Of a DNA stretch of 64,000 nucleotides, positions 8,909-42,628 are shown piece after piece. Within the stretch, counting starts at the first letter, position 1; each line of letters starts with the position of its first letter. The stretch covers positions 62,001-126,000 of the forward strand of contig WLNI01000004.1 of assembly GCA_009699875.1 (NCBI GenBank), read 5' to 3'. The notes beneath the pieces are model-generated. The model worked only from the letters and a program-made list of their open reading frames with translations, did no database searches and was not told the origin of the DNA. This DNA is from Actinomycetota bacterium. GTDB lineage: Bacteria > Actinomycetota > Acidimicrobiia > Acidimicrobiales > RAAP-2. Position numbers and translations under genes: made by a program.

Positions 8909-8986
8909 CGGGCTGTGGCGCAGCTTGGTTAGCGCGCTTGTCTGGGGGACAAGAGGTCCCGGGTTCAAATCCCGGCAGCCCGACCA
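8909..8986 (+). tRNA. tRNA-Pro (anticodon GGG)
   Basis: Full cloverleaf. The acceptor CGGGCTG (8909-8915) pairs with CAGCCCG (8976-8982), with discriminator A and an encoded CCA (8984-8986). The anticodon stem CTTGT/ACAAG encloses loop CTGGGGG with GGG at 8944-8946. The T arm is GGG-TTCAAAT-CCC based. A small inverted repeat CGTTC/GAACG lies just upstream (about 8872-8891). Confidence 0.97.
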
Positions 8987-32232: not shown

Positions 32233-32316
32233 TGTCGAAGGGGGGACTTGAACCCCCACGCCCTTGCGGGCACCAGCCCCTCAAGCTGGCGCGTCTGCCA
32301 ATTCCGCCACTTCGAC
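32233..32316 (-). tRNA. tRNA-Leu (anticodon GAG)
   Basis: Class II tRNA on the minus strand. Acceptor GTCGAAG/CTTCGAC, anticodon stem CCAGC/GCTGG around loop TTGAGGG (anticodon GAG), a long variable arm TGCCCGCAAGGGCGT and a T arm GGGGG-TTCAAGT-CCCCC. CCA is not encoded, unlike tRNA-Pro in this window. TAGGGT about 32 bases upstream could be its -10 box. Confidence 0.96.
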
Positions 32317-39037: not shown

Positions 39038-40955
39038 CGCTGAATTCTGCCGTCTTTTGGGGCCCTGTGGTTCCGCTCGCCCCAGGACGGGGGTGAAGGG
39101 CATCAAAGACAGCCTGGCCAACTGTTGAAGGCAGCCACGCCTCAGCCTGGAGGTCAGCTGGACTGAGTCCTCGGAGGGCCTCCACAGACCCAAAACGATC
39201 GAGGAGTCGTTCTTGACGGCTTGGCCCGAGACCGGGAATACCGTCGAGAATACTCGCCGTCATTGCCTTGCCACGTGTGGATCTATGGAATCCAATGGCG
39301 AAGCGGTGTGCTTCGTCTCGAATTCGTTGAAGAAGGAACAGCGCCTCAGAGCCTCGCTCTAAACGTACTGGCTCGCGAGAAGCAGGGCGAAATACCTCTT
39401 CAAACTTCTTCGCCAGTGAGGCGACTTCAGTGACTTCAGTGAGTCTCAACTCCTGGAGGATGTCAACAACAACTCCGAGTTGGCCCTTGCCCCCATCTAT
39501 GAGGAGAAGGTCGGCGGGCGCAGCAAATCCACGCGTCCCAGTCTTCGTTCTTGGCTCTTCCCTCCATCTCAGTAAGCGTCGTCGAAGTACTTCGGCCATA
39601 GCGGCATAGTCATCGTTACCTTCAACCGATTTCACCGTGAAATGGCGATACGCCTTCTTGACGGGAAGCCCATCTTCAAAAACAACCATCGAGCCCACGT
39701 ACGAAGAACCTTGGAGATGGCTCATGTCGTAACACTCGATACGAAAAGGTGGCCGAGGCAGCGACAGTGCCTCTTGGAGTTCTACGAGAGCTCTCGAGCG
39801 AGAGTTGTAGTCGCTGGCTCGACGAAGGCGATCTCGCTCAAGCGTTTCGGTGGCGTTGAGTTCGGCGAGCTCGATGAGGTGACGCTTCTGACCCCGCTTT
39901 GGGGTCGTGAGGTGAACCGGCGTGCCGCGACGTTCACTCAACCAGTCCCTTAAGGTTTGATCTTCTCCAACGTCGTGCGAGAGGGCAATCAACCCTGGAA
40001 CGTAGGACGCTGGATCGCCATAAACGTCTCGCAGAACGGTTGCTTGCAGCGTTTGATCGTCAAGCGCCTCAACCAGGTCAGCCACGCTCACACTTCGCCC
40101 AACAATTCGTCCATGACGAATATGGATCGAGACAGCCGCTATCTGAAGATCATCATGGCGGACACCCACCACGTCAAGGTTCTCGTTATCAGCCAGAACA
40201 AGTTCCTGCGTCTTTGCTGCCTCATTCATGGCCTCGATATCGTCTCGGAGCTTTGCGGCCTTTTCGAAATCTAAGTCAGCGGAGGCCTGCTTCATACGCG
40301 ACTCAATCGCTCCAACGATTGGAGAGATATTGCCTGAGAAGAAGTCGATAAACCCTTCGAGGTGCTTGGCATACACCTCTGGTTCGACGGCGCCGATACA
40401 CGGCCCAGAACACCGTTCGATATCGAAGAGCAGACAAGGACGACCAGACCTCTTGTGGCGGTCGAACTTTTTATCAGGACAAGAGCGGACGGGAAATGTC
40501 GGGAGTAAGAGATCAACCGTTTGACGAAGCGAGCGGGCGTGGCTGAACGGTCCAAAGTAGCGGGTTCCTTTCCTCCGCACCCCCCTCGTAACCACGGGAC
40601 GTGGCCACTCGTGCGCCATGGTGAGTGCGAGCCAGGGATAGCTCTTGTCGTCTTTCAGTCTGATGTTGTAGTGAGGGAGGAATGATTGGATCAGCGAATG
40701 CTCGAGCTCAAGCGCATCGACCTCGCTGGCCGTCACAACCCAATCAACCTTCGATGCAGCAGCCACCATCTGAGCAGTTCGAGGATGGAGTGAGCGGGGA
40801 TCTTGGAAATACGACGTCACCCGATTCCTGAGTGATCGAGCCTTTCCTACGTAGAGAACCCTCCCCTGCTCATCAAGGAACTGATAGCAACCAGGCTGAT
40901 CTGGAATCGTCTCTCGAGTCGGGCGGTTCTTCACCTCACCATCGTGGCACTTCAT
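39030..40955 (-). CDS. uvrC: Excinuclease ABC subunit C
   Basis: 641 aa from the ATG at 40955 (a TTG three codons earlier or a GTG ten codons later are alternatives; no start has a clear ribosome site). GIY-YIG nuclease domain at the N terminus (GCYQFLDEQGRVLYVGKARSL-type start), a UvrB-binding helix (FEKAAKLRDDIEAM), the RNase-H-like endonuclease domain (ECYDMSHLQGSSYVGSMVVF, LLIDGGKGQL) and C-terminal helix-hairpin-helix motifs (IPGLGPSRQERLLDRFG). It makes both cuts in nucleotide-excision repair with uvrA and uvrB nearby. Confidence 0.96.
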   Translation of the reverse strand: MKCHDGEVKNRPTRETIPDQPGCYQFLDEQGRVLYVGKARSLRNRVTSYFQDPRSLHPRTAQMVAAASKVDWVVTASEVDALELEHSLIQSFLPHYNIRLKDDKSYPWLALTMAHEWPRPVVTRGVRRKGTRYFGPFSHARSLRQTVDLLLPTFPVRSCPDKKFDRHKRSGRPCLLFDIERCSGPCIGAVEPEVYAKHLEGFIDFFSGNISPIVGAIESRMKQASADLDFEKAAKLRDDIEAMNEAAKTQELVLADNENLDVVGVRHDDLQIAAVSIHIRHGRIVGRSVSVADLVEALDDQTLQATVLRDVYGDPASYVPGLIALSHDVGEDQTLRDWLSERRGTPVHLTTPKRGQKRHLIELAELNATETLERDRLRRASDYNSRSRALVELQEALSLPRPPFRIECYDMSHLQGSSYVGSMVVFEDGLPVKKAYRHFTVKSVEGNDDYAAMAEVLRRRLLRWREEPRTKTGTRGFAAPADLLLIDGGKGQLGVVVDILQELRLTEVTEVASLAKKFEEVFRPASREPVRLERGSEALFLLQRIRDEAHRFAIGFHRSTRGKAMTASILDGIPGLGPSRQERLLDRFGSVEALRGLSPADLQAEAWLPSTVGQAVFDALHPRPGASGTTGPQKTAEFSDG

Positions 40956-40995
40956 TGAACACAACGAGAGCGCTACAAGAAGGACCGAGACCGCC

Positions 40996-41001
40996 TAGGA
41001 T
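40996..41001 (+). promoter_or_regulatory. Predicted -10 box (TAGGAT) of nadA
   Basis: TAGGAT in CCTAGGATGTAACC. A start near 41008 would make a 113-base 5' leader, in contrast to the near-zero leaders of many genes here. No convincing -35 box is seen. Confidence 0.4.
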
Positions 41002-41007
41002 GTAACC

Positions 41008-41120
41008 ACGGGCCTGGAATCCCGCATACACAACAGAGTCTTGAGGCCGACATACCCGCGGAAGGGCGACCAGGCTGTCCCCGCCGGCCACTATCAAGAC
41101 GATCCCTGTGGGGGCTCAAG
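41008..41120 (+). promoter_or_regulatory. Structured 5' leader of nadA, candidate riboswitch
   Basis: A perfect helix GTCTTGA (41038-41044)/TCAAGAC (41094-41100) is extended by GGCC (41045-41048)/GGCC (41086-41089). Inside lie a CCC/GGG hairpin (41055-41057/41064-41066) and a competing GGCG/CGCC pairing (41065-41068/41082-41085). A 5' hairpin CGGG (41009-41012)/CCCG (41021-41024) exposes CCTGG, complementary to CCAGG at 41070-41074; the match extends to seven pairs if the 5' stem opens. A GGGGG ribosome site (41110-41114) can pair with CCC at 41104-41106 or with TCCCC at 41078-41082. It does not match any riboswitch core I can recall with confidence. Confidence 0.5.
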
Positions 41121-42236
41121 ATGATAAAAATTTCAGCGTCAATGCCAGCGTCCTATCGAGAAACGTCCCCTGACGATCTCGATCAACGTATTCAAAGAGC
41201 CAAGGCGACGCTTGGCGAGCGCCTTCTCATTCTTGGCCACCATTATCAAATGGACGAGGTCATGAAGTTCGCCGATGCAGCAGGCGACTCCTTTGGACTC
41301 TCGAGAATTGCCGCGGAACGATCAGATGCTGATCTCGTTGTCTTTTGCGGTGTCCATTTCATGGCTGAGTCGGCCGATATTCTCACCGGACCACACCAGC
41401 GAGTCATCCTGCCTGATCTCGCTGCAGGGTGTTCGATGGCGGATATGGCCGATATCGATCAAGTCGAAGCTGCGTGGAGCGATCTTTCGCAGGTTGTTGA
41501 CACGGAACGCGTCATGCCAATTACCTACATGAACTCAACGGCAGCCATCAAGGCATTCGTAGGGCGACATGGCGGCGCAGTTTGCACCTCATCGAATGCA
41601 AGAGCCGTACTTGAATGGGCATTTGCGAACGACGAAGCTGGACGGCCTCGCTCAGACAAAGTGCTGTTCTTCCCAGACCAACATCTTGGACGAAATACAG
41701 CACTCACCATGGGATATGAGACCTCAGAGATGTCGCTCTGGGATCCCGCACACAGGAACGGTGGATTGAGCGAGCGAGAAATGAAAGAGTCGACGTTTCT
41801 TCTCTGGAAGGGACACTGTTCAGTCCATATGCGGTTCACGACCGAACAAATAGAAGAGTTCCGACGCACGCACGAGAATGCTCTCGTCGTTGTTCATCCA
41901 GAATGTTCGCAAGAGGTCGTCGGTGCCGCTGATGCATCAGGGTCGACCGATTTCATTATTCGCTACGTCGAAGCTACCCCGCCGGGGTCCTCTATCGGTA
42001 TTGGGACTGAGGTTCACCTGGTGAAGCGGTTGGCCGATACCTATCCCGACCGCACCATTGTCTGCCTTGACTCTGAGGTGTGCCCCTGCATCACGATGTC
42101 GAGAATCGACGCTCCTCATCTGGCATGGGTCCTTGAAGAAGCAGTCGAAGGGCGCATCAGAAATCAAATCACAGTCGAAGGTGAAACCCAAGCGTGGGCG
42201 AAAGTTGCGCTTGAACGTATGCTCGCTATTACGTGA
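41121..42236 (+). CDS. nadA: Quinolinate synthase A
   Basis: 371 aa. Condenses iminoaspartate with dihydroxyacetone phosphate to quinolinate in NAD synthesis, using an oxygen-sensitive 4Fe-4S cluster. Conserved segments: ILGHHYQMDEVMKFAD, VVFCGVHFMAESADIL, PDLAAGCSMADM (cluster Cys), ITYMNSTAAIKAF, FFPDQHLGRN, VHPECSQEV (second Cys) and EVCPCITMS (third Cys). nadB and nadC, its usual neighbours, are absent; a YccF gene overlaps its end by 4 bases. The preceding leader may control it. Confidence 0.96.
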   Translation: MIKISASMPASYRETSPDDLDQRIQRAKATLGERLLILGHHYQMDEVMKFADAAGDSFGLSRIAAERSDADLVVFCGVHFMAESADILTGPHQRVILPDLAAGCSMADMADIDQVEAAWSDLSQVVDTERVMPITYMNSTAAIKAFVGRHGGAVCTSSNARAVLEWAFANDEAGRPRSDKVLFFPDQHLGRNTALTMGYETSEMSLWDPAHRNGGLSEREMKESTFLLWKGHCSVHMRFTTEQIEEFRRTHENALVVVHPECSQEVVGAADASGSTDFIIRYVEATPPGSSIGIGTEVHLVKRLADTYPDRTIVCLDSEVCPCITMSRIDAPHLAWVLEEAVEGRIRNQITVEGETQAWAKVALERMLAIT

Positions 42237-42628
42237 GTTTTCTTCGAGTCGTCGGAAACATACTCTGGCTTTTCACTGTAGGCCTTGCTCTCGCGATCAG
42301 CCTGGCGATAAGTGGGATCATCATGTTCATCAGCATCATTGGAATCCCCTTTGGCATTCAAGCGTTCAAACTCGTTGTCTACGTGCTGTGGCCTTTTGGA
42401 TCAGAAGTCGTTCAAGTCTCAGCGAGTACGCCAGGATGTATCGGAAACGTTTTATGGTTCGTCCTCGGCGGGCTTCCCGCCGCCCTCATTGCGTTGCTCT
42501 TTGGGCTCGTCGCCTTTGTAACGATCATTGGCATCCCGCTCGGGTTGATTCTGATTCGAATGGTGCCGCTCTTGGCCTTCCCCTTTGGAAAAGAAGTTGT
42601 CCCCCGTCGGGAGACGGCGACGCCTTAA
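42233..42628 (+). CDS. YccF-domain inner membrane protein
   Basis: 131 aa. Two repeated hydrophobic units each ending in a short polar motif ([22 protein letters not shown] and [22 protein letters not shown]-type) are the hallmark of the YccF family. About four membrane segments. Function unknown. The GTG start overlaps the nadA stop (GTGA), so it would share nadA's leader and any control. The stop shares TTAA with the convergent uvrA stop. Confidence 0.88.

Follow-up and report, generated by a model that had tools for sequence, protein, structure and literature searches.

Upstream of nadA, in a stretch of 64,000 nucleotides from contig WLNI01000004.1 of an Actinomycetota bacterium (hereafter, the window), the divergent genes uvrC and nadA are separated by a 155-base gap that contains a TAGGAT hexamer and a GC-rich leader. 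The question raised by this locus was whether the leader is a regulatory RNA and, if so, what it would sense. The original prediction had placed a candidate NAD-pathway riboswitch here, and the elements on which it was based, i.e., the leader, the TAGGAT box, an interrupted helix, a CCTGG/CCAGG loop match and a maskable ribosome site, were all recovered at the same positions (Table 1). The long helix joins 41038-41049 with 41085-41100 through 12 pairs with one break. When the window was compared with all 4227 Rfam families, the leader gave no match, either at gathering score or at E ≤ 10; two tRNA genes (8909-8983 and 32233-32316) were the only above-cut-off matches in the window. Moreover, the single-sequence fold of the leader was no more stable than that of dinucleotide shuffles (z −0.22). 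The case therefore rests on comparison with relatives and not on folding energy.

Table 1. Elements of the nadA leader and the adjoining gene, in window coordinates
Feature	Position	Strand	Support
-10 promoter hexamer TAGGAT	40996-41001	+	sequence; TANNNT in relatives
P1 hairpin, CGGG 41009-41012 with CCCG 41021-41024	41009-41024	+	6/6 pairs covary
Kissing pseudoknot, 5' partner CCUGG (P1 loop), pairs with 41070-41074	41013-41017	+	comparative pairing
Linker P1-P2, consensus ACAUAUC in relatives	41025-41037	+	partly conserved
P2 5' strand GUCUUGA, partner UCAAGAC 41094-41100	41038-41044	+	7/7 pairs covary
P3 5' strand GGCCG, partner 41085-41089	41045-41049	+	invariant penultimate C41048:G41086
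8-nt bulge ACAUACCC (consensus ACANCCCC), putative ADP/NAD+ pocket, no binding data	41050-41057	+	column counts; NAD+-I bulge (PMC7297122)
P4 5' strand GCGG, partner 41081-41084	41058-41061	+	covaries GCGG/CCGC, GUGG/CCAC, GAGG/CCUC
P5 hairpin, 41064-41068 with 41076-41080, loop ACCAGGC 41069-41075	41064-41080	+	covariation
Kissing pseudoknot, 3' partner CCAGG (tip of P5)	41070-41074	+	comparative pairing
3' strands of P4, P3 and P2	41081-41100	+	covariation
P6, UCCC 41103-41106 against Shine-Dalgarno GGGGG 41110-41114, putative expression platform	41103-41114	+	covariation
nadA, quinolinate synthase, putatively regulated gene	41121-42236	+	NCBIfam TIGR00550 above cut-off

Distribution and gene context of the leader

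A plain DNA search of 198 related genomes with positions 40940-41160 as the query found the leader in 99 of them, 64 from the same family and 35 from other families of the order. The recovered loci aligned end to end, and the hairpin, bulge and loop were common to them. Second DNA matches in two genomes (G173 and G211) might have been additional copies beside other genes, but they were rejected, their covariance-model scores being at chance level. A covariance model built from 45 sequences (R1) then detected the motif in 176 of 397 genomes searched within the order, with a single copy in the window's own genome (window 41009-41114), and in 396 genomes drawn from the phylum it gave one match outside the order, still within the class. 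With a second model, built from 100 diverse sequences (R2), the genomes with the motif in other orders of the class were now 40, and no motif was found in the other classes of the phylum sample. Taken together, the DNA search, R1 and R2 yielded about 276 genomes from a single class of Actinomycetota, inferred to be Acidimicrobiia. Two metagenome bins labelled Acidobacteriota, L196 (REEB343) and L234 (REEB240), carried the motif as well; their NadA was 62-64% identical to that of the window, and they are probably mislabelled Acidimicrobiia. Within the window's own family, the switch is absent in places. Genus g6 (G027-G029, G030 and G031) has a close NadA but showed no leader match in the DNA search, and a model search of the g6 genomes G027 and G031 detected no motif; in genus g21, most genomes were without a close NadA.

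The gene downstream of the motif was nadA in all 120 of the matches that could be checked, out of 121 aligned. These comprised 99 of 100 aligned matches, the other locus having too little DNA, and 21 of 21 from other orders. The distance from the motif to nadA was mostly 0-15 nt in the 100 aligned matches. On the other side, 97 of 100 relatives had a TANNNT box in the 22 nt before P1, mostly 5-9 nt from it, where shuffles gave 11 and a control stretch lying further upstream gave 4. This arrangement makes it very likely that the transcript would begin at the foot of P1, at about 41007-41009, a start inferred from the position of the box. A transcription start downstream of 41100 would have refuted the original prediction, and the recurrence of the box in relatives opposes such a start.

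Covarying helices and the kissing-loop pseudoknot

All six helices covary. In the 100-sequence alignment, changes on both sides were observed in 31 of 36 pairs, pairing stood at 94.8%, with shuffles at 82.5%, and the covariation score was 0.391, compared with 0.157 in shuffles and ≤0.08 when the strands were slid. The shuffle counts are uncorrected for relatedness, whereas the sliding control does correct for it. The same covariation was recovered from 21 sequences of other orders that had played no part in building the model. Thus, conservation and covariation, whose absence in relatives would have spoken against the original prediction, are present across many families, the order and the class. 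The reading of the leader as an ordinary 5' UTR that folds by chance because of its GC content agrees with the single-sequence energy, which was no better than that of shuffles, but it is already refuted by this class-wide conservation and covariation, and we regard it as practically excluded. Two mutually exclusive inner stems had also been proposed; one set, P4 and P5, is conserved and covaries, and no conserved alternative to it was found. In a few members (f39, f61 and L322), P4 and P5 were merged into one helix. The ACAUAUC consensus of the linker is explained by no pairing, and this segment may contact the ligand or the groove of P3.

The match between the two loops, predicted to form a pseudoknot, turned out to be real. 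Each of the 98 sequences in which both sides carry letters kept the pairing, through seven combinations (CCUGG/CCAGG, CCCGG/CCGGG, CCGGG/CCCGG, CUCGG/CCGAG, CCCAG/CUGGG, CCAGG/CCUGG and CUUGG/CCAAG), several of which recur in different families. In this region, 491 of 491 cells were paired and both sides change in three of the five pairs, and the covariation score was reached by none of 500 shuffles. The covariance model contained no pseudoknot, yet this pairing covaries. Collectively, the covarying helices, the pseudoknot and the leader position after a promoter show a conserved structured RNA with the features of a cis-regulatory element. One divergent relative from another order of the class (L323, 545-602) kept the bulge as ACAUCCCC together with P2-P4, and showed no match to the 5' hairpin and a different apical loop; it may have lost the kissing contact, or it may be an intermediate. 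It was also considered as a link to the tandem NAD+-I architecture and rejected, the bulge being present but without a kissing loop or an RF03013 match.

The bulge core and its likeness to NAD+-I

Over 100 sequences, the columns of the 8-nt bulge contained A in 95, C in 100, A in 99, any letter at the fourth position, and then C in 82, 96, 99 and 98. The penultimate pair of P3 was C:G in 100 of 100, and in 21 of 21 sequences of other orders, with the neighbouring pair taking four standard types. Crystal structures of NAD+-I (the nadA motif, RF03013) show that in domain 1 a ACANCCCC bulge separates coaxial helices and that the penultimate C:G pair contacts ADP through its minor groove; the C6U/G47A change abolished ADP binding (PMC7297122). 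C41048:G41086 of the window corresponds to that ADP-contacting C6:G47.

The support from Rfam for this likeness is weak. A cmscan of ten short cores, taken from different families, against the 4227 Rfam families gave four matches at E ≤ 10, all of them to RF03013 nadA, at 15.3-18.6 bits and aligned on the bulge; in the relative L030, the sole Rfam match was again RF03013 nadA. The RF03013 scores of relatives ranged from 14.1 to 18.6 bits, all below the gathering cut-off of 37.5 bits. In 148 genomes of the order, none exceeded this cut-off, and the whole-genome RF03013 matches there were rejected as candidates, since they were below cut-off and at places other than the motif. Random sites elsewhere in these genomes reach 20-25 bits with RF03013, so that homology cannot be established from Rfam alone. 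The identity claim is made because the pocket letters, the invariant contact pair and the gene combine. The original prediction could not match the core of a known NAD+ riboswitch; once relatives are compared, the core does match the ADP-binding bulge of NAD+-I, although the window itself gives no Rfam match. The window's variant bulge, ACAUACCC, may hide the core from Rfam.

Like domain 1 of NAD+-I, this RNA lies upstream of nadA, has coaxial helices split by the 8-nt bulge that is followed by a G:C pair, carries the invariant C:G pair of the ADP A-minor contact, and has a Shine-Dalgarno sequence masked downstream. The criterion that NAD+-I controls NAD+ biosynthesis genes is met here by the position before nadA, the control itself being inferred. 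The architecture differs, however. NAD+-I has two domains and this RNA one; the 7-bp P1a is replaced by a 4-bp P4 and an asymmetric loop, whose 3' strand is 0-1 nt in nearly all members, and there is no equivalent of the 3'-strand GYG that pairs to the bulge. The tandem bulged domain 2, which holds the ribosome site in NAD+-I, is also absent, and the few nucleotides that separate the motif from the start of nadA in most members leave no room for it. Instead, the apical loop is engaged in a kissing contact by a hairpin at the 5' end, which replaces domain 2 and the pairs between the bulge and the internal loop. The host also differs: according to PMC7749635, the 101 examples of NAD+-I are limited to Acidobacteria, whereas this RNA was found in Acidimicrobiia. 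The ubiB variant of the nadA motif (Malkowski 2019) likewise re-uses the ADP domain modularly in a variant architecture; according to the description in PMC7297122, it keeps two domains and the 8-nt bulge with 7-bp spacing, and this RNA differs in lacking the two domains and that spacing. NAD+-II (the pnuC motif) shares the NAD pathway, a pseudoknot and probable translational control, and it differs in architecture; it reads the nicotinamide side (PMC7749635, PMC10085692), and its Rfam model gave no match from the window or relatives when the 4227 families were searched at E ≤ 10.

We therefore read the leader as a cis-acting riboswitch of the nadA mRNA and a new architectural variant of NAD+-I, to which we assign a probability of about 80%, with the ligand, the direction of switching and the coupling to P6 inferred. 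The proposal of a NAD-pathway riboswitch before nadA is thus supported by conservation, covariation and an NAD+-I-like bulge, and NAD+ as its ligand remains an inference. The same data could instead describe a distinct third class of NAD+ riboswitch that reached the same ADP-binding bulge independently and does not descend from NAD+-I. The sub-threshold RF03013 scores, the lack of the P1a length, the GYG loop and the tandem domain, a kissing hairpin without counterpart in NAD+-I and a host phylum other than Acidobacteria would all fit such an origin. Nevertheless, it would require that seven specified bulge letters, variability at the fourth position, a penultimate pair fixed as C:G, the next G:C and the same gene coincide with those of NAD+-I (PMC7297122), and we consider it possible but unlikely. 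On a related and equally tentative proposal, which we would not favour at present, the RNA would be a separate NAD+ class widespread in Acidimicrobiia, in which the bulge, the kissing hairpin and the ACAUAUC linker jointly make up one pocket that takes both halves of NAD+; if true, it would have a specificity against ATP that NAD+-I lacks.

The nature of the ligand admits a further doubt, as the recognisable pocket reads the ADP half only. The RNA might sense the energy state through ADP or ATP, or else a different coenzyme that contains ADP, for example CoA. The ATP/ADP alternative has to be taken seriously, since NAD+-I shows no discrimination of its own: its full-length RNA binds ATP no less well than NAD+ (PMC10702441). 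Every checked instance of the motif, however, precedes nadA, which favours NAD+; the same association was used to argue for the ligand of NAD+-I (PMC9971707). We judge these other ligands rather improbable. Covariation reveals RNA structure and not a ligand, so that the leader could also be bound by a protein regulator or serve as an mRNA stability element with no binding of a small molecule, but the unpaired positions under the strongest conservation coincide exactly with those of an established coenzyme pocket, and we consider such a role very unlikely.

No earlier report of this RNA was found in the open-access literature, and Rfam 15 contains no family that it matches above cut-off; priority is uncertain, as the subscription literature, including Malkowski 2019, was outside the search. 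As a variant of NAD+-I, it would add about 276 genomes in another phylum to a riboswitch described as rare (101 examples) and restricted to Acidobacteria (PMC7749635), and would demonstrate the portability of the ADP module proposed in PMC7297122. Since it combines a single pocket with a kissing hairpin, it would make the nicotinamide reading of NAD+-I and its failure to reject ATP (PMC10702441) testable in one short RNA.

Proposed switching and the ribosome site

As a variant of NAD+-I, the leader probably responds to NAD+ as an OFF switch for nadA translation; binding and switching are both inferred, with no ligand data. In the mechanism that we propose, the coaxial P2-P3-P4-P5 arm would carry the ADP-binding bulge ACANCCCC beside the invariant C:G pair, and P1 would close the fold through its kissing contact with the tip of P5. 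NAD+ would bind through its ADP half and close this arm. When NAD+ is plentiful, the closed fold would favour the adjacent P6, and P6 would hide the Shine-Dalgarno sequence and stop nadA translation, as proposed for NAD+-I.

The evidence for the last step is uneven. Across relatives, P6 was paired in 83% of cells and its covariation was above that of all 500 shuffles, and the claim of a maskable ribosome site is upheld to this extent. The window's own P6 is weak, and in the computed ensemble the Shine-Dalgarno sequence pairs more with other segments; in some families the hairpin is also weak, or no Shine-Dalgarno sequence was recognised (13 of 97). Forcing the aptamer helices in nearest-neighbour folding neither freed nor hid the Shine-Dalgarno sequence clearly. 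A thermodynamic switch between the aptamer-formed and aptamer-free states was thus not supported, as no clear change in Shine-Dalgarno pairing was obtained, and the coupling of P6 to the aptamer is therefore unproven. At the other end of nadA, a YccF-domain gene (window 42233-42628) overlaps the stop codon and is probably co-transcribed with it.
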